64,000 nucleotides of DNA from Fragilaria crotonensis (lineage: Eukaryota > Bacillariophyta > Fragilariophyceae > Fragilariales > Fragilariaceae). Where the stretch lies: positions 1 to 64,000 of the forward strand of contig JAKSYS010000083.1 of NCBI GenBank assembly GCA_022925895.1. Reading direction: 5' to 3'. The notes beneath the pieces are model-generated. The model saw nothing but the letters and a program-made list of their open reading frames with translations. It was not told the origin of the DNA and did no database searches. Shown here piece after piece: positions 1,821 through 22,546 of this stretch. Position numbers and translations under genes: made by a program. Within the stretch, counting starts at the first letter, position 1. Each line of letters begins with the position of its first letter.

Positions 1821-4800
1821 TTACTTGGGTGTTCTACCGGTAGCCCGATTCTGGTCCTTGTTACTATTCAAATCCGTGGAGTGGCTGCCGACAATCGTTC
1901 CGGACACCGAAACTCCGATGTTGTCCGTACTCCCTCGCACGTATGCCTCTTGCGTCAACCGCTCGGCCGCTTCCTGAAACGCTCCACCTTCTTCCCACCG
2001 GTTTCCTTCTGATAAACTATAAGCCTCTAGTACTTCACTCACCATGTCAACGACTTCTTGATTGCTCATGACATCCCATAGACCGTCTGAAGCGAGAACC
2101 ACGAAGCATCGTTCCAATCCGCAGCTGTCGTTCAACTCTTCCCGGGTCATAGCAACCACAGACGGTACACGGGACAAGTATTTGGACAGATTCGAGTCTC
2201 CAATCGACCTGGTAATCACGAGCTGTCCATTGACACGGTCCACTCCATTCGGAGACTTGGTCACAGTTCCACCTCGTCCAATCACCAACTCCCTTTCAAT
2301 CGGGTTTGAGGCAACGTGGTTATCAGTGAGCTGCACAAATGACAACTTCCCACGCTCGTCCTTGGAGGACATGATGGCCCGGGAATCTCCCACACTGGCG
2401 ATCAATACCACGTGGTCATTTAGGTATATAATGGTTGCCGTGGTTCCGCTTTGATCCATGACACCGACCGGTGCAAAGGAAACGGCTTCAAGGAAGTTGC
2501 GATGGATTTCTTCGAATATCCCAGTCATCTTCTTGGCTGCGTCTGCCTTCCAGGTCGACACGTACTTGGATTCGGCTGATACATTGGCGAAGCGACTCTG
2601 TAAAATGCCATAAATCACGGACGCGACATATTTGGCAGCGAGATTCCCCGTGTGGCCGTCAAAGACGCCAAAGAAATGATGGTCGGGATGCAACTGAACG
2701 GCGTGAAAGTCTTCGATTGTCCTTCGCCTTCCTTGGATATCGCAGTACCCTGAGAAGGGGTGCTCCGGCAGAAGTACGTGCGCATTGAGACATGATGGGA
2801 GCTGGCTTCGGTCATACGTACAGAACTTCGCATGCTTTCTGGAGTTGGCATGAGCATGACAGGATTTCCAGTCAGTGAAGTTTCGGCCACATTTCGGACA
2901 AGTAAATACCTCGACCATGTCACTGCCTTGTATATCCATCCGTGGGTCTAGCATCAGTGATTCGAGCGCATTTTGAGCTGTCGGGATCAGTGAATGTTCT
3001 TTCAGATCCAGTATTGTGAAGAATGGATGCAGCAAAGCTTCGGATGGGGTGTATCTCTCCAACGGATCCCAAGCCAAAAGCTTCCAGATAAGGTGCAACA
3101 GAGGATCCGCCGAAGAATCAAATCCGATTCCAAGAGGATCGCGGGCTCGCAACGCTTGATGAAAGTCCTTGATAGTACAGGATTCTCTCACCATCGAGGC
3201 TCTGTGAAGGGGGTCGCCATCTCGCATTGGCCATTTACTGGAATCGCCTTCGCTGGACGCTTCTGGGGCAAAGATGCAAAACTGACTTAACGCTGCGAGG
3301 TACAATGCCCTTTGGATGTCTTCTTGGCTAGCCCCATGCTTAGCCATGCGGTTGGTAAGGAGGACTGTCGTTCGCTGGTCAACAGAAAAGACATTGGGTG
3401 TACCGAGAAGCAGTTCCAGCGCCAAAACGCCGATGCTCCAAGAATCATAACTTTCTGGCTTGTCCGAATTAAACGGAATCCAAGAATTGCCAATGAGCGC
3501 CTCGGGTGGAGAGTACTCTTGCGTTTGTTCGTCCATACTAGGTCCCTTGGCGTATAGGTTTTGATCAGAGAAACGATCCCACGCACTCGAGAAATCGCCT
3601 ATTACACACTCAATCTTGGCGACGTCTGCATCGAAAAGGTCCAAATCCAATATGTCAACGAAATCAACATCAGTCTTGCACATGACGTTCGATGGCTTGA
3701 TATCTCGATGCACAATACCCATACCTGCCAATCGAGCGGCCGACTCCAAGATTTGACGTAGCACTTCTCTCATGAGGGCTCGACCTGCTCTGGGGTCCAC
3801 ATGTTTGTGAGGTTGGCGCCGTTCCCTCGGATTCGGTGAGCCAACGGCTGCAACGGACGTCTCATGCCCCGCGTTCTCGTTCTCAGACGGGACTGTTCGA
3901 TTGGTGGCTGCCATGCGTAGCTTTCTCCAAAAAGGGGAATGCTGGAATAGCACGAAGCCACCTGCGGAAGAAACTGGCTCATAGATGTAGGAACGCAGGG
4001 AAGATCCTGCATCTTCGAAAACAATCCACAACTCGAGGGTACGTTGCCCTGGAACTTGACGGAAGAAGTGATCCACGTATGTGGTAAAGAGTGAGCTCGC
4101 CCGACTGACTTGTCCTAGAATATTTCCAAAGTATATTTCCCGGAGACCAGCTTCTAATAGATCCATACCATGTTCTACCTTGAGCCGTTTCAAAATGAGC
4201 GGCCTTTTCGGATCACAAACCCGGGGTTTGTCCCCTGGAGCACAACGGCGACGGCCCCTCCACACATCACCATGGCTACCACCTGCAAAGCCCCGATCTC
4301 CCATGGCTTCGTAGAGTGTGGAAGACGACGATGCCGGTCGTTGTCGTGATCCCATAAAGACAAACCACCACTTCCACCATGTGGATGGAATCACATTCAA
4401 TGCCAAGGGACCTGGGGCTTTGACTTCAATACTGGCGATCGTCGAAGATGTTTCAGTATTCGACGATTCCTCTAATTCTTTGGGTAGTATATCGTATCCC
4501 CAAATCAGCGCTGGGGTATACGCATAGTCTGACGCATGTTTGGGAGTCATTCCCAGTTGTGGAACCAAAGGTCAAGTAATTCATAATTGGTGGTCCCCAA
4601 CATGTCATCATCATCGTCTGAAGGATCATACGGGGTCGTTTCACAGCGATCCACAGGATGCACTTGGATCGTCATGCCGCGGTAGGGTTCGCGGTTGCCA
4701 ACTTGTACGGTTGGATCATCGCTTCTAATCTCCAAGCTCCATTCTTGAGGCACATCGTGTCCCATCCGACGGCAGTGGCGTTTCCAATCATGACGAGTCA

Positions 4801-10460: not shown

Positions 10461-13372
10461 GTGTGGAAGTGGTGACAACAGAATGACTTGCGTCTTCCGT
10501 CTTTCGCTGTGATTTCGTTCGTGTGGTCAGCTTCAAACGGCATGAGTTGGCGAACCATGATTTACTGTCGTTCTCGTGGAAATGTACAGAAGCGATACTG
10601 CTGAAACCCCTTCCAGTGGATTAACTACTGACGTCTGCCAGGTGTCGCGAATTTTCCAGGATAAAGACATCAATGTGCAAGAGCACAAGTACCGGTATAC
10701 GCATTTATCCAATTTAAAAAAGGGCAGTTCAAGGGGCACACGGTCCCGCAGACTGGCACATGACTGCATTGGGACCATGGGTGTGTCATTCGGTAATGCA
10801 GGCATCGGGAAAGGTCAAACCGATACTACTCTTAAATTAGGCAGACCCGGGTACACCCACGCAAAAGTTGAAGCACGTTCAAACTTGATACTGCAGGGAA
10901 CGTACACATAATTAACGCATTTGCAGGGCAAACTACATAACTGAGAGGAGAAGCTTCGTCCTCACGTCCTCTCACTGGAGACTGGAGGAGATGGATTGGC
11001 CGGAGAGCGACAACAGTAGACAGTAGACTCACTCTCTCCACTTGCAAGTAGTAGTAGCGTACATGCAATATACAGTACGTCCATGTTCTGTATGATACAA
11101 ATATCCGTTCTCCTGACAACGTCACGACCTCGATATCCTTACGTGTTGTAAACTCTCTTAGTAGTAGAGCACGTACTGTATAACTGTATATCTGGAAGTC
11201 TGGAAGTGACAAGGTAGACTACAGTACTCCAGTACACGCTATCAGGCCCAAGGGTTATGACGTTATGACTTTCGGTGGTGTGCCTAAGATACAATCATGT
11301 CTCCTTGTATCAAAGATAAAGAGAGCTGTCCCGGTTATAATACATAATACATAAGTGAATTCCCTGCATTTTTTACCACTAAAAAATGCAACACTTGTTG
11401 GCGTGCTTAACATTCCTGCTGCTGGCATACTGCTGTTATTTCACATTTGCCATGTACCATGTTATGAAGAGCAACTTGTACTGGAGGAGGCAGGCTTTGT
11501 GTCACCAATGACACTGCCATTTCTATTGGAGCAGCAGTTGAAGTACAACTTGAGCATTCAAGGACTCAAGCGCGAAACAGCAAAAGAAAATGTGGATCAG
11601 ACATAGAGGGCATGATTGTTGTCATTTTAAAACCTACAAATAAAGTGGCGGATTGTTTGCGGATTGTTTGCGGACTGTTTTGAGTTTGTTCTCATGTTTG
11701 TCTGCTGCAGAGGAAGGCACCCCAATGAAGTTCTTCCATACGTTCTTCCATACTTGTGACCATGATATAATTTATTTGAGTTGTCAGTTTTCCATGGTCC
11801 TTCTTCATATGCCAGGTACTGGCTGAAAAACGGACAGACCATCAGCACACATTTGTGTATGTGCAAAGTACATGATGCGCCACATGAACTTCTTCCAGTT
11901 GTTTGGCAACATACACGTGATGCTGAGTAGCTACTCCGAGGACCTCGGATAATACCTCTGCGGTCTAAGCAGCCATGAAACCACATCGTATTCTTTCCTT
12001 TCCCCCGCATTGGATAGTGCCCTCCTACAATCCAGTAAACGACCGAGCGAGAAAATGAATCGTATGCATTGCAATCAATGCATAAAAATATGGTGTGCCC
12101 AATGTCCAAACAGCATTGGGGTACATGTTGGCATTTGTCACCTTGTTTGCCTCTAATCGATTGCGTGCTTCATCTGCTCAGTACATCTATTGCATGTAAG
12201 TCATCATCAATCAATTACTACTACACTCTTCACTGGCTAGTATTCCCAACTGCTGGTATTCCAGCACCTCGTCATGTCAAATAGTCAACCCTGATGGCAT
12301 CACTCCTTGGACTTTGTCAGCACTACAGCATAATGAACAACAAGAATATACACGTGCAAGAAGGGAGTTTTTAGGCTTTAGAATCATGAGCTATCAAGAA
12401 ATGACAATTTAGTACTTACCACCCAACAATTGTCGACATTATTGATGAATTCAGGTAAAATGGTATTCAAGATTGAAGTGCAGCCAGGTGTTGGTGCTGC
12501 AGATATTGGTAACAGTGGTGGACAGGGGCACGACTGTACAGACAGCATCTGTCTGGGATGTACTACTCTGAGTACTGCAGAAGATAGGCTGAAAACTGTG
12601 GCTGCTAGGCATGCTGTTGTACAGTTGCTGGTGAGAACAGTGCAGGGATTCAAAACTAGTAAGTGAAACAATTTTGCAATTTCTTACCTGCAAGGTTCTC
12701 CTTGCCCGAGAAGCTGCACAGATCATCAAGCTTCACTAGAGGCCTGTGTAGTTAACAATCAAGAAGGCCATGGGCAAGATTCCTTTAGTGCTCATGCCTG
12801 ACATTGTGAACAATTTGAATGACCTGGTGATGAAAATGGAGTTGCTTCTTGAGAACAAGTAATAGTAGTCATGCAAACAACAGCCAAGGTGCATCACAAT
12901 GATTGGGATGTTTCCAGCATGTTGGCAAAGTGCTAGTTGAACAGGAAGATGATAAAGAAATGAGCACAGAGTACAAGTAGAAGGGGCAGGTACCCATCAC
13001 AGCAACCCATGATGTGAACCTGCCTTGCGCTGAAGATCTGAAATGCCTTTGTGGAAAATGGTGGTGCTGCATTCCATTGGGAACTGTGCCTTTGACAACA
13101 TCATTGTTGTCATGGTCCACCAGCACATACAGTTATTGAGGTCGTCCCAGCAGCAGGAAGCATTGATGACATAGTAGAACTATTCTCCAACAGCAAAGAT
13201 AAATAGTGGCTGCTGTTGCGTAACAGCCTGTAACTAGTTCTTTTGTTGCAGTATTGCAGTTTTACTTTTCATTTGTCAAACATGTATGATGATGAGAACA
13301 TAACTGAGAAACAGAATATGAAATTGAAACAGCACACAACATGACAAGAGGACTGCCACCATGTGAACCCTC
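10461..13372. other. Long stretch with no recognisable gene
   Basis: About 2.9 kb upstream of the heat-shock-factor gene. A GTAC-rich patch lies at 11040-11235. Near 11648-11690 an 11-base unit (GCGGATTGTTT) is repeated in tandem. The longest ORF (12109-11627, minus) and the others have no family resemblance, and codon usage looks non-coding. It could be decayed transposon sequence, but nothing shows that directly. Confidence 0.45.
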
Positions 13373-13386
13373 CATCAGAAGGTGGG
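13373..13386 (+). repeat. Left terminal inverted repeat of the composite transposon
   Basis: CATCAGAAGGTGGG; the reverse complement occurs at 21946-21959. It is followed 18 bases further in by the shared ATATGTTAACTATTTGTTAAG block. From here to 13907 the sequence is AT-rich with no gene and probably holds the subterminal repeats and promoter of the transposase. Confidence 0.6.
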
Positions 13387-13907
13387 TTTTTGTATCACTG
13401 ACAATATATGTTAACTATTTGTTAAGAAGTTGTAATATGTTGCTTGAAGTCACGTATATGTTATCACTATTTGTATGTATTTAGTCATTCTATACTGCGA
13501 CATTTCTCAGAGTCATATACTGTGGCAAAATATATTTATATTAAACCAATGTGTGTTACCTAGTAGCATCTATGCGTATAACTTACCTTAACAGTTGCAA
13601 ATGTAACAATGTTTCTCTAAACATTTTTACTTTATACTGAATACATGTGGTAAGAGTATCGCATGTGGCTCATTAAATTGTTTGTTCTGAACAGACTCTA
13701 GATATTCATACGCCATATACATTTAAGCCATGTTTTTACGACCATCCATTGTTTGGTATTGGTTTGCGAAATTTTCAAGCTTTTGGTTTTGGGGGAGACG
13801 AGCATTTTATGAACCAACCATTTCTTGTCTCCTTCCAAATATACGCTTACGTGGGAACAAAATTGTGATATTTTGTCTTAACTCCACACACACTCTCATC
13901 CAACAAG

Positions 13908-16210
13908 ATGGTAACACCTGATCATTGTACGGTTTGCAACAAGAGTTTCAAGAGACTTTTGCACCACCTTAATCAGAGTTTGGCATGTAAATCTCATTAC
14001 ATGGCAAGTGACAAAGCAGCAACAACAGTGCCCTCCATTGTATCAAACATCGGCCACGTGAAAACCGGTAATTTGTTGCAAGGTGGTACTTCTCGCACTT
14101 TCCGTCCAAATTTGAGTTCTCCTTTGTCCGATGGATTGCTTCCAGTATTGGAGAGTGGGGGAATTGCTGGAAAGGCCGACGATGAGCTGCGTGTTGAAGA
14201 TGTCAACGAAGTCGATGACTACATTATGTTTGACGACGACGGTATTCCCGAGCAAGGCGATGCTGACGATCAAGACATTTCAGAAACTGAATCGGAGGAA
14301 GGTCCTGATCTCAGCGTTTTGGATTTGTACTTAAAACTGTTCGCTGCGAGCAAACCCGCTCGGTCTTGCGCGTTTTCTCGGGAGGAAAGAGTCCAAATTG
14401 AGTTGTTGCAGCTTCTTAGGGATCTGAAGTGTCCTCTCAAAGCATTCACCCTAGTACTTAAGTGGGCTGCTAAATCAAACGGGAGCGGCCATTCATTCCG
14501 TGAGGGATTTCAACCAACTCGTGAGAAGGTGATCGCAAATTTATTTGAAAGGTACAACATGAAAGGATTAATCCCGAAAGAGAAGAAATTGTACCTGCCT
14601 TATACACAGAGGACCGTCTCGTTGATATTCTTTGACGCCAGTGAAGTATTCGCATCGCTACTCTCATGTCCCACGCTCAATCAAGATGGGAATTATTTCT
14701 TTGACAAAGCAAAGGATCCATTTGTTGCACCAGAAACATCATCCCACGTGGGTGACATCCACACAGGCCGTTGCTACAGAAAGACATACGACGCCCTGAT
14801 TAAGAAGCCTGATGTCGACATGCTCCTCCCCTGTATCATGGCAATGGACAAGACATACATCGACATGGCAGGCAGACTCAGATGGAGCCAATAACAATCT
14901 CTCATGGTCTTCTGAACCACTCAATACGTCGGCTCCCAATTGCCATGCGAATCCTCGGATACATCAATCACAGCACCCCGCCCATCTCCCTTCAGATTCC
15001 GAAATAGATGCCGAGTTCAATGCACCCGCTGACTTGCCAAAGGGGACCGCCCGTGTTGAAGACCCGCTTCGGTGCCCCAAAGACGTAAGTTGGTCAACGT
15101 TAATCCTGAACGAGACACACATGCAGATCCAGTTCATCCTAGAGGAATCCGGTTTTTGAGATTACAGAATCATGGTTTCCGATGGGATCTTAGCTACAAT
15201 GGAAAGATCCACCCCGTCGTGTTCCACCCGTATGTACCCTTCATCATCGGTGACACAGAGGGCACGACCGTCTTTGTGGTCACTACACCGCCCGATTTTC
15301 ACAGATACAACAGCTTTGTCGCATCTGCGAATGTCCCACGTACTTGAGTGGTTATTCCAAGTCCAACTTTCGCCACCGTGTTCCCAAAAATCGATGCTCT
15401 TGTGAGTAAGGGCCACACCGTTGAGCTCCAGTTGCTGTCCCAGAACTATCTTAAGAATGGATTCGCTGAGGTTAGGTTTGGTCTCCACAATCAGCGCGGA
15501 ATATTTGGAGCCTGCCCAGGCGAAATGCTCCATTTGATTTCCCTCGGTTGGTTTAAATATTGCCTGCAGGCCTTCTCAGCCCAAGCTGGTCCCAATTCAA
15601 ACGCATTGAAACAATACGATGTGCTGTGCGCTAAGTTGGGCAGATCATTGTCCAGACAGAGCGATCGCGACATCCCCGAACGAACTTCCCAAGGGGTTTT
15701 CATCAGGATCCAATCTGATGGGGCACGAGATGACAGGGTGTCTTTTAGTCACATTATTTGCACTGCACACCACCTACTTCCGAGGCATCTTCGAGGTTGG
15801 GAAAAAGGTAGCTGTAGTAGGGGATGACCAGAGGTTTCGTTATGAAAACCACATTCAAGATTGGATAGGAGTTGTTACATCTCTCCTGGTGTGGCACCAA
15901 TGGATGAAACAACCGATGATGTCAAAGAAGATGGTCAAGCGTTCGCACACCTGCTTGCAGTGGCTGATGCGTGTTGTCGCCGAAGTGGCGCCCGTCCAGG
16001 AGCAATGGGAAACAATACGATCAAGACGCACTTGGTACTGCATCTGTGCGAAGACATCCTTGACCACGGTGTTCCCGACAACGTGAACAGCGCCTACGCT
16101 GAGTCAGCTCACATCCCACTCGCGAAGGCGACATCCCGAAACACACAGAAGCGAGCCATATCCTTCACAAAACAAGCAGCCAATCGCTATACTGAAAATT
16201 TAGTCATTTC
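13908..16210 (+). pseudogene. Decayed transposase, Plavaka/KDZ-like (CACTA-related)
   Basis: The first open stretch (13908-14894) begins in a good context (AAGATGG). It encodes an N-terminal finger CTVCNKSFKRLLHHLNQSLAC, an acidic linker, and then the core FVAPE...GRCYRKTY, LLPCIMAMDKTYIDMAGRL. One missing base at about 14880 moves the sequence into another frame, which continues QMEPITISHGLLNHSIRRLP and AMRILGYINH. More pieces follow in shifting frames: HGFRWDLSYNGKIHPVVFHP, YVPFIIGDTEG, GACPGEMLHLISLGWFKYCL, SGSNLMGHEMTGCLLVTLFA and HGVPDNVNSAYAESAHIPLA. At least five frameshifts are needed, far more than in neighbouring genes. The 'DKT(Y/N)ID..GR' block followed by a sentence about equal-length helices is what I associate with Plavaka-type transposases. 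The catalytic DDE residues were not assigned. Confidence 0.6.
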
Positions 16211-17292
16211 ACTCGCTTCTACAGACGTAGAGAATGACGTCAAACGCAACGTCGACAGCAGTGCAGCTGACGTTGACACCCGCTCTCCGATGGTAAGGGT
16301 GGTCGTCGTTTTTACCTTGCATGGGAGGAAGGCAATGAACGCGCCACATTTCGCTGGACTCGCCCGCGCTCCGGAGACAACTTGGAGATGGCCCATCTTT
16401 CGCACCGAGTAACGGCCTTTCTGAGTCGACATTGCCTGCCCAAAATGCCGAAGGGAGAGCTCCCATGCTTCACGTCCTTCAACGACGAGGACGGCAACAA
16501 TTACCGCGCCCATCCTTGCTACGACGGCAAGGCATGGAACGATTACGCGATGATCGAGTGGGAAGGGTACCCACAACCCGAACCGGTGTTCATCCACACG
16601 TTCGTTGACCTCCGCGGGCTTCCGAAGGAGACTCCATTGACATCAACTCGAATGGACAGACAAAATTGACAGCCGGGTTGTACGCCGTCGCCCACTCCTT
16701 CAATCCAGTTGACGAAGGTGACCTCAACACACCGAACACCCTCATAGGTCATTATACCCCACATTTCCATTCCTTTAACGACAGACATCCAACCCTCTTC
16801 CTGGTGGATGTTGAGTCCATAAGGTCACCGGTACTAGGTATTCCAGATGTTCAATTTGGAGTGAAACCTCCAATGAACGAGCGGCATTACCTGTTCCTGA
16901 TCCGTCGCAAAGCAGAGTGGCCCCGTGCGTGGGATTCCCTCATAAACAGGTGCCACCATGATTTGGAACATGACGTCGACGATGACACCTGGTTTGAAGA
17001 GGAGTATGAGAAAGACGAATTGATCAACCGCCTGCCAAGTGGTAGGGAAATTTACAGTGTCAAGACCCCAGAAGACTTCGCTGCGGAGGTAGCCGCGGAA
17101 AAAGCCGAAAAGGTTGCCACCAAGAAGAAGAAGGAGCACGCCGCCGCAGAGAAAGCATCCGCGAAGGCCGCGAAGGCCGCCGAAAACCCAGGCAAGAAGT
17201 CGAGTGCCCCAGCGTCCACCGCACAACGTTTGGCGGGAAACTTTAAACGCAAACGGGTGGCCCCAGCGAAGACGGGTAAGGGTAGCCAGTAG
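16211..17292 (+). pseudogene. C-terminal part of the transposon main protein or separate element ORF
   Basis: This is probably the continuation of the transposase. Open segments 16382-16669 and 16666-17292 belong together after a shift near 16625. They share a smooth passage (HTFVDLRGL then DINSNGQTKLTAGLYAVAHS). The tail (HYLFLIRRKAEWPRAWDSLI, WFEEEYEKDE) is followed by a Lys/Ala-rich basic stretch ending in KRKRVAPAKTGKGSQ, which looks like a nuclear or DNA-contact tail. No enzyme motif was recognised. It ends 21 bases from the stop of the convergent oxygenase-like ORF. Confidence 0.5.
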
Positions 17293-17313
17293 GCAGTCCC
17301 CAAGTGTTGTCAG

Positions 17314-18648
17314 CTAGGAAACTCCGCAGTAGTAGTAGAACCAGTAATCAAAGTTGAACATGTTTACTTTTTGTTTCTTCGGTATCTTGTATCGTCCACC
17401 AACCTCCAGGTCAGCGAGTTGCACCTGCCAGCCACCGAAAGTCAAGCTGTCACCGGCTGAACGTCCATCTCCCTTCCGTCCACCCACGCAGGGTGTTCCG
17501 GCACTCACCGCCACGTTTGGTTTTCGAGAACCAAAATGCAGCTCACCACCACCGCCACCAACGGCTCCGTCCTCCCGCCCGTCCGCACGGGACGGCGAAT
17601 CACCAACATCACGCTCCCGTTTGCCAGAACGGAATCGCCGCACGGCATCGGAACCTTCCGAACACAGCGGCAGCCCGATGTCAAGGAGCTCGACAGCCGC
17701 CTCCTCAGCAGACGCCAACCCGCCGGCTTGCCAACCGGGCTCCGTGGCCGCGGCACCCCCGGCTTCAACCCGAGGGCTGCCCCTCCGGCGGGGTCTCCTC
17801 CCCCTCTTCTTTTGTCGCTTCCTGCTAGCTCTCTTCGAGCCAGCCGGAGAGGGCGCCCCGGGGGGACAGTAACCGGCAGCACACGAGGCCCGTCCAGCCT
17901 TCACAATTTTCTCCTTTGCAGCCGTGAACGTTCCGTAAAGATGGTTCCGGAAGGAAGAGTCCCTCCCCCTGGTCACAAACCCGAATTCCTTCCCATCCGG
18001 ACAGGAAACAGACGTGCAGTGTCGGACAACTCTGCCATCCCAGCTGATGGCCACACCATGGCCAAGCTTCACCGCCATGCCGTGGAACTTGGTTCTTCCA
18101 TCTGGTCTTACGCCGTGTACGTTGGGGAGAACGAAGTACCAGTTCTCCCCACAGCCCGGCACTTCCTCGGTCCACAAACTGAAACCTTGCGAGGCGTCGT
18201 TCACGTCAAAGTGCGACGAATTCCCGAGGTTGACGCTCATGTCCACGGTGTACCCAACCCGTTGGCGACGTTCCAGCATCTCCATTCTCTCCCGAAGATT
18301 CTCACGCACGTTACCGCGATTGTAGTTGACGACGTCAACGTCACAATTGTCATCGTCACCGTCATCGTTGTCGTTGTCGTCGTCACAATCGACAACGTTC
18401 CCATCACCAGCACCCCCGCCGTTGACCGTCGGAAGGACGACGCCGTCCATCGGCGAAACCGGACTCAAACCGGAGTTCCCCTCGGTGTCCCTTACAACGG
18501 AGTACACCTGCGGGAAGCAACGACTCCCAAGGATCGCCAAGTCAACCTTCTTCTTCCCAGCCTTCTTCGTCCCAACCTTCCGTTCCCCATCCCTCCCGTC
18601 CACGACCACCTTTTCCACAGCATCAACGCCACGTCGATCGGGCGACAT
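17314..18648 (-). CDS. Transposon-borne protein with HxD...H pattern, possible 2-oxoglutarate/Fe(II) oxygenase fold
   Basis: A 444-residue intact ORF from ATG 18648, tail-to-tail with the transposase. The N-terminal 130 residues are basic, then strongly acidic (Asp/Asn runs). The central block, residues about 140-260, looks folded: VDMSVNLGNSSHFDVNDASQ, GFSLWTEEVPG, WYFVLPNVHG, MAVKLGHGVAISWDGRVVRH, then CTSV. HFD (codons 18213-18205) and the later His (18021-18019), 62 residues on, fit the iron ligands of a double-stranded beta-helix dioxygenase. The strand containing ISWDGRVVRHC suits the last ligand. No Arg sits at +10 from that His; the nearest candidates are Lys +10 and Arg +17. TET/JBP-type oxygenases are known passengers of fungal KDZ transposons, which makes the idea plausible. 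The C-terminal 180 residues are Arg/Gly/Ala-rich low complexity. The fold is inferred, not proven. Confidence 0.5.
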   Translation of the reverse strand: MSPDRRGVDAVEKVVVDGRDGERKVGTKKAGKKKVDLAILGSRCFPQVYSVVRDTEGNSGLSPVSPMDGVVLPTVNGGGAGDGNVVDCDDDNDNDDGDDDNCDVDVVNYNRGNVRENLRERMEMLERRQRVGYTVDMSVNLGNSSHFDVNDASQGFSLWTEEVPGCGENWYFVLPNVHGVRPDGRTKFHGMAVKLGHGVAISWDGRVVRHCTSVSCPDGKEFGFVTRGRDSSFRNHLYGTFTAAKEKIVKAGRASCAAGYCPPGAPSPAGSKRASRKRQKKRGRRPRRRGSPRVEAGGAAATEPGWQAGGLASAEEAAVELLDIGLPLCSEGSDAVRRFRSGKRERDVGDSPSRADGREDGAVGGGGGELHFGSRKPNVAVSAGTPCVGGRKGDGRSAGDSLTFGGWQVQLADLEVGGRYKIPKKQKVNMFNFDYWFYYYCGVS

Positions 18649-19786
18649 CGGGCTCTCTCCTGCTTCCTGGCAGGTGAAGGCCGCGCAATGCCTGTTCCAA
18701 CCTCACAACAACCAGCCACAGAGGATGGTTGTCGCGAGCGCGCGCTCTCCAACAAAGACAATCAACACGCAATCCTGGCGTGGACTATCTATTTGTTGAA
18801 AAGTCAGCGAGAACTATCCGACGGCGACGTGATGATGTTGCAACAAACAACCAAAACAAGAGTACTTCATGAGAGTACTCTGTCATCAGATTGTGCTTTT
18901 TTGGTGTCACCATTCACCAAAGGTACTAAAAAGCAGCAAAATCGACGTACTGTAAGTACTATGGCGAATGTAGGGCATTTTGCACCTGGGACTTCTTTCC
19001 AAGACCTCTAAATGCAGCATATATATGTTATTGATGTATATAACATTGAATTACGTTATATACACATCCATCGATTATAATAAAATTATGTATTTAGTTA
19101 AATGAAAAAGTAATTACAGTACATAGCATTTTCATGTATAGATGATACATTCGTTTCCCAGGACAGGACTACATACTGGTACAGGTACACTATACTGCAC
19201 CAGTACGTAGCAACAAATCAGTACGAACGCAAAAATTTAATGCTTGCTCAATACATGGATGTACATATATATGTAATTTACATCATGTATGCATACGCAC
19301 CACGACACCTTGAATGATTACCAAGAACTAGCTGCCGGTATAAGAACACTGGTGTTGCATACTCCGAGTACGACAACTACTGGTAGTGAAACAAGATTGC
19401 GAGTACGTCAACGCAAAAACAAGACTGCAGTGATCATCATGTCATAAATAATTTTATAGTCACACATATTCATACAAGTATATAAACGGAAAATGTGGGA
19501 AGCTAAATAGTGAACATGTAAGTGCATTTAAAAAAATAAACGACTTGCACATGTTTTGTGAATATAAGTAGTAAGCGATACATTTTTTGTATAAGTCATG
19601 TACAGGTAGAAAATGAACAAACAGGGACAACTCATACAATTTTGAAAACTGGTGGGAGATTCAAAATCCCAAATTCATCACCCAAAATTACAAGTCGTCT
19701 CATACTTGCTGCAAATTGATACAACCACTGAGACCGCTATTCTAACCCTTGCTTGCTTCTTCTTACATTTTGATTCATTCGTCCTC
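18649..19786. other. Intra-element spacer, AT-rich with GTAC clusters
   Basis: It lies between the divergent starts of the oxygenase-like ORF and the accessory ORF and should contain both promoters. From 19010 it is very AT-rich, with ATATAT runs. GTAC motifs cluster at 18860-18960 and 19120-19400. No gene was recognised. Confidence 0.45.
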
Positions 19787-21527
19787 ATGCCGAAAACATC
19801 TCCAACTAAGCAACCTTCAGTGGCTAGTACTCGGACCACGCCTCCACGCGCGACCAAGACCAAGACGAAGAACGCCGAACTTGACACACCGACAACAAGA
19901 GCCAAGAGGAATGAGATGGCGGCACAGCAAAAGGCTGAAGCTGCTAAAGCTGCTAAAGCTGCTGCTAAAGCAGCTGCTAAGAAAGCAGCGGCTAAATCTG
20001 CGGCTAAATCTGCGGCTAAATCTGCCGCTAAATCTGCGGCTAAATCTGCAGCTAAATCTGTTAAAGCATCGACGACTGCAGTTAACCCGGACCCACCAGT
20101 GCAGATCGCGACAGCAGTTAACCCAGACCCAGTGCAGATCACTGCAAAGGGACGCAAACGACGTGTTGTTCCTCCTCGTGGTAAGAAGAAGAGGAGGAAA
20201 GTGGCACCAAAAAAGGTGGTGGTGGTGAGCAGAAGGAGCGCTCCTGAGGAAATTGATGACTCCTCTTACTCAGTTGAAGAGGTTGACGATGAAGAGTTTG
20301 AAGAGGTTGACGATGAAGAGTCCGAATCAGATGATGACAGGGAGGATGAGGGGAAAAGTAATGCGGGTGATGACAACAACGTGGTGACACATGACATGTC
20401 AGATGATGACGACTCTGTTCTCAGAATGGATCAGTTTGTTAGAGATGTCGGGAAAACAGCAATGGATGCAAGACGACGTCTTGGTCAGGAGTTGAACCAC
20501 TGTGCCCAGGAAGGCGCGGAGGATCCTCCAGATGACAATGATACTCCAACGGCGAAGAAGAAGGTGTCGTCTACGCATGTTCAGCACGATGATTGCGATG
20601 ACAATGAGTCCAATGCGCCGCCACGAGAAGAGAAGCACGTGAGAAATCGAATTGTGATATACGTCAAAAACGAGTTGTTCCGTCGATGTAAGTTTGTTAA
20701 CAGTCCAGTAATGTTCCGAAGGGCGTTTCGAAAGGTGCTTGAAATCGAAAAGCCAAAAAAATCATTTCCTTTTTCAGTTGACATACGAGAAATGTTTCAA
20801 TACAGCGTTGAACCAGAAAAGGAGTACGTGTGAACAAGCTGGTCTCAGAATTGTTCGGGGCGCAATCAATAAGGATTTCAAAAAACGCGGCGAAGACTTC
20901 TTCACGTTTGAAGAATTCTGTAAGCTTAGGACAGCAACAACAGACAGGGAGAAAAGGGCCTTCTTCTTCTTCTTCAATAACTTCTTGGAGTGTGTATGTG
21001 GTGCAAATGCGTGGAGAATCGCGAAGAAAACAATGCTTGTATCGGAGGCGCGGCACAGCGACAATTCGAAAATGGTAACAACAAGTGACGAAGCGTTTGG
21101 ATTGTTGCTGATTGACAACTATTTGGAAAAATGGAAAACCGGCACGGAGTTGGTTGACGAAGACAACCCAACGGAAGCAGATGATGGGCAGAATATGACG
21201 ACGAAGAAAACAAAGAGACAAGCGGGAAAGTACACTGAAAAGAAAAAAGGAACCTGCAAGTATGGTGGGTGGAGCGATGACGGAATAAGACAGTTCAATG
21301 CACTGCGCATAATGGTTAAAGAGAACAGGGCATGCCCGCAGTCAAAAGACATGGAACGTGAGCTGCTGGCATTCTGCAGGACACGGGCAGGATTGAAGAA
21401 TGCCCGTGGCGATGAGCGGCAAGAACAGCACGACGGTACTGGTGCTGACAACAATGCATTGGAAACAGCGGTAGCAAAGGTACCTGTGGAGGCAGCATGG
21501 GACTCGGATGACGAAAATGAGTCGTAG
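19787..21527 (+). CDS. Transposon accessory protein, Ala/Lys-repeat N-terminus (one frameshift)
   Basis: Starts at ATG 19787 (MPKTSPTKQPS); the frame opens earlier but only with a GTG. Residues 45-90 are Ala/Lys repeats, including five copies of KSAA in a 12-base tandem repeat, resembling a histone H1 tail. A very basic patch (GRKRRV, RGKKKRRKV) and long acidic runs (EEVDDEEFEEVDDEESESDD) follow. The frame breaks at an A7 run near 20755. Removing one A gives a 579-residue protein that continues HFLFQLTYEKCFNTALN, AGLRIVRGAINKDFKK, FTFEEFCKL and TTSDEAFGLLLIDNYLEKWK. The last motif recurs, in my recollection, in accessory proteins of related eukaryotic transposons. The likely role is DNA binding or support of transposition, which is inference only. 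The frameshift could be an assembly error. Confidence 0.55.
19935..20062 (+). repeat. In-frame Ala/Lys-coding tandem repeat
   Basis: Units of GCTAAAGCT and then GCGGCTAAATCT recur about ten times inside the accessory ORF, encoding AAK/AAKS repeats. Variation between copies is mostly at third positions. Confidence 0.75.
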
Positions 21528-22546
21528 TTGCTTGTGATTGCGACAGCTGCTGCTGGCAGCCATAGTTCATTAAATGCATTAAAATGGTGAATGTTATGAA
21601 AACAAATGGCTAGGTTGATACAATGTATGCTGAAATGAGAACACCGCAATGCGTAAAGAACAAATATATATGGTGACTTGGCAAAATATATGTCCAAGGT
21701 ATAGCATGATATCGCCATATGTGATTTTTTATAACTATTTCATTTAAACAAATATGTTGACAAACTATTTGATATGTAACAATATGTGTCACATTGTGAA
21801 TACAATATTGCACCTAAATTGTGAAAAGATACAATATATGTTTGAGACAACATATGTGTTAGCCACTTAACATACATGTGCAGAACTTGCGATAGGGATG
21901 TCATTATCCGGTAACAATTCAAAGCTTAAAAAATAGTTAACATATCCCACCTTCTGATGTCCTCTTTCCTACCAAATTAAAGAACTGCAGGATTACTCGC
22001 CTCTCATTCAGGTAGGACCGCTGGGGCATGGTGCTGTATCAAATGGTATGGAGGAGTATTGATTAAATTGATAACAAGCAGCACCAGCAGCATGGTGTCA
22101 AAAGACGATACTACTGCTAGATGTGGAGTGCTGGTACTACGACTAGTACACCAGCAATCACTTTAGTCTATTGGGTCATTTGTTTCGGTGTTTTAGAGTT
22201 TAGTGTTTCAGCTTTCAGGCTTGTATGCGTAGTGTTGATATGTTGACGCATTTGTAAAATGTTGACCATTTTTTTGTTTTCTTTTTTTTCCATTTAAGGA
22301 CAATCCTAAGCAACAAAAATGTATGTTCGACTGTCGATCCGAGGATTCTGGATTCCCATGGTTTGACCAATTGGATTACGTTTGGATAACTTGAATTCTA
22401 CTATCAGCATACCTGGTAAAAGTACCGGACTCTCCTAGTAGTAGTAGTCGTACAAGGAGTAGTATAGTGGAGATCAAATATATCATGGATGTATGTTTGC
22501 ATATCTATTTATTTGTTTAAAGTTTAAATTCGAAACAAAACCCACC
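21528..22546. other. Right end of the composite transposon and flank
   Basis: An AT-rich subterminal region with repeated ATATGT/ACATAT words runs to the right inverted repeat at 21946-21959. Beyond it, a GTAC-rich patch lies at 22120-22460. No gene was recognised. Confidence 0.5.
21946..21959 (-). repeat. Right terminal inverted repeat of the composite transposon
   Basis: CCCACCTTCTGATG, the reverse complement of 13373-13386. The adjacent AGTTAACATAT block mirrors the left subterminal block. Confidence 0.6.

Follow-up and report, generated by a model that had tools for sequence, protein, structure and literature searches.

TET/JBP genes have been described in 11 lineages of fungal transposons (Kojima 2025, PMC12730594), and in the literature found, base oxygenases on transposons have so far been described from fungi. 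The PlavakaB branch, which holds all TET-positive Plavaka families of that study, has the ends CATCA..TGATG and duplications of 2 or 3 bp. The protein type listed there for Plavaka, PE, carries HxE, and its fold similarity to CMD1, NgTET1, and CcTET was reported. The anti-silencing function of transposon-borne TET/JBP proteins is called not experimentally validated in the same paper, the main text of which does not contain the word "diatom". Outside fungi, Plavaka transposases were reported from the green alga Auxenochlorella (PMC12633428) and from Amoebidium (PMC11244446), hosts which are non-fungal like the diatom; the passages describing these elements mention no oxygenase in them. A search of open-access literature by title and abstract found no report of such an oxygenase-bearing element in a diatom.

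The window analyzed here comprises the first 64,000 nucleotides of contig C829 of the diatom Fragilaria crotonensis, the genome assembly of which is 62.1 Mb in length and consists of 881 contigs. A complete element, delimited by inverted repeats and by the comparison of copies, spans positions 13373–21959 of the window. Its left terminal inverted repeat, CATCAGAAGGTGGG (13373–13386, plus strand), was found by an inverted-repeat search, and the right one (21946–21959, minus strand) by an inverted-repeat search, the comparison of copies, and a terminus search. Both ends are flanked by the same 2 bp, TC, representing the target-site duplication (13371–13372 and 21960–21961). The sequence CATCAGAAGGTGSG occurs in the genome in 74 exact copies (42 forward and 32 reverse), while its reversed control yielded none. 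The termini CATCAG..CTGATG were found in the window element and in three other complete elements; the complete relatives on contigs C393 and C529 are 10.1 kb in length.

Duplications were analyzed in 19 element pairs (15 likely pairs and 4 whole elements), of which 16 had both flanks available and 3, located at contig ends, were left unscored. A matching 2-bp duplication was present in 15 of the 16 elements, the exception being C109, and a 3-bp duplication in none of them. Each of three shifted controls gave 1/16, and mismatched flank pairs gave 35/240. On contigs C29, C37, C85, C87, C331, C507, and C563, the termini of a pair are separated by 3.1 to 7.1 kb only, and every pair shows a 2-bp duplication; these short elements are probably non-autonomous relatives. 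At the locus L051 5342 (C637:27841), part of the oxygenase-like gene of one copy runs straight into the terminus of another element, apparently the result of one Plavaka element having inserted into another.

The decayed transposase of the window element is encoded on the plus strand (13908–17292) in several frames, e.g., 13908–14894 and 16666–17292, the former of which matched the Plavaka profile PF18759 below the cut-off (E 5.6e-4). The transposases of two relatives, L024 and L026, matched the same profile above the cut-off (E 1.1e-7 and 6.3e-8, respectively). In the transposase of L024, an open frame of 1159 aa, inspection by eye of this one protein revealed the C(2)C motif (CRVC), the H(3)H motif (HLVLH), and the following Glu (AYAES). 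The characters of PlavakaB were thus found at the termini, in the 2-bp duplications, in the Plavaka domain of L024 and L026, and in the C(2)C and H(3)H motifs of L024. The fungal TET-positive PlavakaB elements (PMC12730594) share with the diatom elements the C(2)C and H(3–4)H motifs of the Plavaka transposase, the CATCA..TGATG ends, and 2-bp duplications. The element is a copy of a cut-and-paste DNA transposon of the Plavaka type from a diatom, which carries three genes and has a full length of about 10 kb. The earlier note on this DNA had suggested a parallel with fungal KDZ transposons that carry TET/JBP oxygenases. The parallel with fungal TET/JBP transposons is retained for the element and for the HxD...H layout of its second gene, but KDZ identity was rejected because the ends, the duplications, and the transposase are all of the Plavaka type, the ends being those of PlavakaB.

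The third gene is represented in the window by two overlapping plus-strand frames (19652–20833 and 20739–21527, together 19652–21527). Of the 91 genome matches of the relative P0002 (305 candidates, 74 scored), one lies at 20751–21323. No Pfam family was found for it above the cut-off; a stretch KYGGWSxxGxxRFN was observed in it. This third gene, common to the diatom elements, distinguishes them from the fungal TET-positive PlavakaB elements (PMC12730594), as far as the latter are described there.

In the long-frame copies examined, the transposase is followed by the oxygenase-like gene, oriented tail-to-tail to it, and then by the third gene in the direction of the transposase. All three genes were seen in L024 and two genes each in L023 and L026, within the stretches examined. 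The tail-to-tail position of the window ORF next to a decayed transposase, as described in the earlier note, was also observed: the broken transposase lies on the plus strand. Collapsing 63 matches by hand left 38 distinct transposase loci, 25 of which had an oxygenase-like match within 8 kb, in a tail-to-tail orientation in 24 cases. The other 13 loci had no listed partner. Two of them were examined: on C869 the gene is present (E 1.6e-118), and in the 3 kb examined beside the transposase locus of C249 it was absent. Of the 42 Plavaka hits with an early entry into the profile, as seen for the window element, 24 lay no more than 8 kb from an oxygenase-like match, at most 3.4% being expected, against only 1 of the 38 hits with a later entry. 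Conversely, a Plavaka profile hit was found within 8 kb of only 27 of the 133 oxygenase-like matches, a shortfall which may come from fragments and from transposases missed by the profile.

Six transposases were 46–48% identical to that of L024. Four of them (C134, C161, C340, and C829) lie tail-to-tail with an oxygenase-like match, and the other two (C1:85687 and C832) have no such match among those listed. The partnership of the two genes thus looks old. Beyond the window, positions 109788–120084 of C829 hold a second element, of the deeper clade, in which the three genes are arranged alike: the third gene on the minus strand, the oxygenase-like gene on the plus strand with an open frame of 1291 aa, and the transposase on the minus strand.

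The ORF which drew attention to this locus (17314–18648, minus strand) had been described as intact. It is indeed open over 444 aa; however, compared with the element on C393, about 1450 bp (some 480 codons) are absent from the window copy, so the gene is not intact. The window element aligns with the C393 element in three blocks, which are 96.6%, 93.9%, and 98.6% identical. The blocks bordering the loss overlap by 4 bp, placing the deletion junction with its 4-bp microhomology at 18543–18546, and the loss falls almost wholly within the oxygenase-like gene. Residues 1–34 of the window ORF represent the original N-terminus of a longer protein, the C-terminal half of which follows directly; the long members of the family have open frames of about 700–950 aa, and for the deeper clade, frames of up to 1494 aa were listed. 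The window ORF is real, and most of it corresponds to the C-terminal half of the proteins of a family carried by transposons.

The same deletion junction was found in a copy on C39, which matched that of the window over 100 of 100 bp. The C39 element occupies a different site with its own 2-bp duplication, and its oxygenase-like frame is interrupted. Since the junction is common to two separate insertions, each with its own duplication, the deleted form was mobile after the deletion arose. That the frame is open in the window copy is thus no sign of separate selection, and the copy is probably a non-functional relic. The earlier proposal of separate selection, made because the ORF stays open next to a broken transposase, is not upheld for a copy with a deletion of about 1450 bp that falls almost entirely in this gene. 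That the host has kept the window ORF independently of the transposon is accordingly very improbable, although the frame is open while the transposase is broken and the core has a dN/dS of 0.149 between the window and C393 copies. The divergence from C393 may predate the deletion, the value over residues 35–426 is 0.377, and the deleted form recurs in C39 with an interrupted frame.

In its own genome, the protein encoded by the window ORF had at least 106 matches (403 first-look candidates, of which 95 were scored), and at least 131 (292 candidates) were obtained when a remoter family member served as the query; both numbers exceed chance. In three copies (L022, L018, and L021), acidic simple repeats, i.e., runs of Asp or DDNY units, lengthen the linker before the core domain, very variably between copies. 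Twelve comparisons of the oxygenase-like gene were made for dN/dS; dS was computable in nine and saturated in three. Seven of the nine gave values of 0.05–0.17; two of these are nearly saturated, with dS near 2, and one, that of the window core, is nested in the longer window comparison. The remaining two values were 0.36–0.38 (L010 with L011, and the above comparison of the window with L009 over residues 35–426). The oxygenase-like family is thus under purifying selection. Of the four transposase comparisons, a short stretch gave 0.41 and two were saturated; the fourth, in which the reading frames did not correspond (28% identity), was discarded.

The conserved core domain corresponds to residues 125–272 of the window ORF (17833–18276, minus strand), as judged from alignments of 40, 18, and 23 copies. 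The alignment of 40 cores was obtained with tblastn; identical rows and one stop-bearing row were dropped, and L001 and L002 were omitted as repeats of the window and L009. The earlier note had pointed to HFD followed by a distal His, and these residues are located at 146–148 (18205–18213, minus strand) and 210 (18019–18021, minus strand), with 61 residues separating Asp148 and His210. In the ungapped rows of the 40-core alignment, His146 was invariant in 37/37, Asp148 in 38/38, and His210 in 40/40; the HxD motif and the second His are thus kept in homologues, all of them copies from the same genome. Asp151, three positions after HxD (18196–18198, minus strand), was conserved in 37 of 38 ungapped rows. 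His146, Asp148, Asp151, and His210 were all invariant in the alignment of 23 rows, which includes a clade with 41–46% domain identity, and His146 and His210 are the sole invariant histidines of the domain.

A third alignment of 43 rows was built by pattern search; the pattern itself set its HxD columns, which are therefore not counted as evidence for HxD. In this alignment, His210 was present in 42 rows, and position 194 (Lys in the window; 18067–18069, minus strand) was Lys or Arg in all 43, as well as in 39 of 40 rows of the tblastn alignment; this position is a candidate for the basic residue of the co-substrate site. Other conserved residues noted in the core are Arg206, Arg209, and Lys245. 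We failed to find a conserved Arg or Lys at +10 to +17 after His210 in the 40-core and 23-row alignments, which agrees with the earlier remark that Arg is missing at +10: Lys220 occupies this position in the window, in a variable column. The family alignment is shallow (Neff 2.2), and all its sequences come from one genome.

Among the readings of this conserved set, a non-catalytic accessory of transposition, e.g., a DNA-binding partner of the transposase with purely structural invariant residues, is improbable. Elements of the CACTA type often carry a second gene that is DNA-binding, and the diatom element also has a third gene; on the other hand, both histidines and several Asp and Arg residues are invariant down to 41–46% domain identity, a pattern that would be more typical of an active site.

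Several features of the core recur in TET/JBP proteins. Besides HxD...H, common to the diatom family and to NgTET1, CMD1, CcTET, and phage Tet_JBP, the arrangement G198-x6-G205-x4-H210 after HxD was found in 23 of 23 rows of the family, and HxD..G-x6-G-x4-H also in NgTET1 and in 8 of 15 phage Tet_JBP-like proteins. The G-x6-G-x4-H spacing occurred in none of 47 cyanophage-type 2OG oxygenases, and the whole pattern, which was picked after the sequences had been seen, in 68 of 9200 shuffled family sequences. The phage set comprised 15 of the 19 loci L095–L113, and the one tested, L095, matched Tet_JBP below the cut-off (E 4.3e-6); for the cyanophage set, 51 of 81 loci were chosen and 4 with stops were dropped. 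The Asp three residues after HxD, present in 23 of 23 rows, corresponds in position to D234 of NgTET1 and D350 of CMD1, in which it is the base-reading residue (PMC7854593).

Database searches with the protein and its core gave no comparable likeness. Pfam returned nothing above the cut-off, and the weak, unrelated names obtained (RCDG1, LydB, FAM221, and DUF7693; best E 0.033), all below it, were taken as chance. The PHROGs and NCBIfam searches yielded no family for the oxygenase-like protein, and the PDB sequence searches no relative of the 2OG type; the best PDB matches were to chains of arenavirus GP1 (E 0.012 and 0.1) and were also regarded as chance. A scan of viral contigs with the core gave 31 stretches with the pattern and no relative, and no Tet_JBP matches were found in the diatom genome up to E 1. 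With hhalign, the domain alignment reached 0.3% against NgTET1 and 0.1% each against phage Tet_JBP-like and cyanophage 2OG proteins, values within or below the range of reversed and column-shuffled control alignments; the positive control, phage Tet_JBP-like against cyanophage 2OG profiles, gave 83% (E 9e-6). A Chou–Fasman sketch placed strand-like stretches around the motifs and is too crude to be weighed. Thus, the case for an oxygenase rests on the invariant residues, their spacing, and the context, and not on detected homology. The 2OG/Fe(II) layout proposed for the ORF in the earlier note holds in that HxD...H is kept at 41–46% domain identity, but the profile comparison is at noise level and the classical Arg is absent.

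The second gene of the fungal TET-positive PlavakaB elements (PMC12730594) likewise encodes a protein with HxD/E...H that stands very far from the known TET/JBP proteins. Unlike these elements, the present one resides in a diatom and not in a fungus, and its protein has HxD in all ungapped rows while the PE type, with its reported fold similarity to CMD1, NgTET1, and CcTET, has HxE. The diatom family further differs from TET/JBP in that no profile similarity to it was detected and Arg is not conserved downstream of the distal His. Typical of the diatom family are also a conserved N-terminal region of about 400 residues, Lys or Arg at 194, and Arg at 206 and 209. CMD1 (PMC7854593), a TET homologue from an alga, shares HxDxxD...H and the lack of a basic residue placed for the C5 carboxylate of 2OG, and it uses vitamin C. 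It differs in that the consulted portions of that paper mention no link of CMD1 to transposons; its likeness to the diatom family, as noted here, is one of residues.

The absence of a conserved 2OG-binding Arg and of profile similarity to the 2OG oxygenases tried could also suit a metal enzyme with a different fold (e.g., a nuclease, hydrolase, or protease), in which HxD and His would bind zinc or magnesium and assist transposition by cleaving, joining, or processing ends; the conserved H, D, D, H, Arg206, Arg209, and Lys245 would fit a hydrolytic center as well. We consider this unlikely, if somewhat less so than the non-catalytic accessory, because the G-x6-G-x4-H spacing and HxDxxD agree with NgTET1, PlavakaB is the very branch reported to carry TET/JBP (PMC12730594), and none of the nuclease or hydrolase families was matched above the cut-off.

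The reading we prefer, with a probability of about 0.6, is that the gene encodes an Fe(II)-dependent base-modifying oxygenase, TET/JBP-like in its working though not necessarily a member of TET/JBP, which acts for the transposon and helps it to escape from silencing. The full-length product would most likely adopt a double-stranded beta-helix, in which His146, Asp148, and His210 would hold Fe(II) and a flipped base would be taken with the help of Asp151. The base, probably 5-methylcytosine, would be oxidized on the transposon DNA, and the removal or change of the host silencing mark may then allow the element to be expressed and to move. As for the co-substrate, candidates are a site involving the always-basic residue 194 and a co-substrate other than 2OG, as in the algal CMD1.

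A mark to be removed is plausible in this host, the genome of which contains 13 matches to DNA_methylase (PF00145), not necessarily corresponding to 13 genes. In another diatom, Phaeodactylum tricornutum, methylation was reported to be confined to transposable elements (PMC12344493). More tentatively, the diatom Plavaka elements might carry DNA-base oxygenases that form a separate family and descend from none of the known TET/JBP types. The co-substrate site of this family would be altered, either by the placing of the basic residue on another strand or by the use of a co-substrate other than 2OG, as in CMD1, and the enzymes would undo or re-mark host methylation; self-modifying transposons would then have an independent, non-fungal origin. 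Should the diatom family, with an equal type of transposon and equal ends and a very different protein, prove to act in this way, Plavaka would pair with base-modifying enzymes across distant eukaryotes. A methylating alga offers a direct test of whether such enzymes shield transposons from silencing, and an enzyme without the 2OG Arg might use another co-substrate and produce a new base.

Some other genes were observed in the genome. In the window, a protein kinase domain and, after it, a PP2C phosphatase domain are encoded by a single ORF (1824–4571, minus strand). For the silicon transporter family PF03842, 19 matches were found in the genome, 18 of them over the cut-off (best E 4e-193), with none of 14 control genomes over it, a result that marks the host as a diatom. 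Three tandem silicon transporter domains were encoded by one open frame of 1456 aa (C97:29749–33762).
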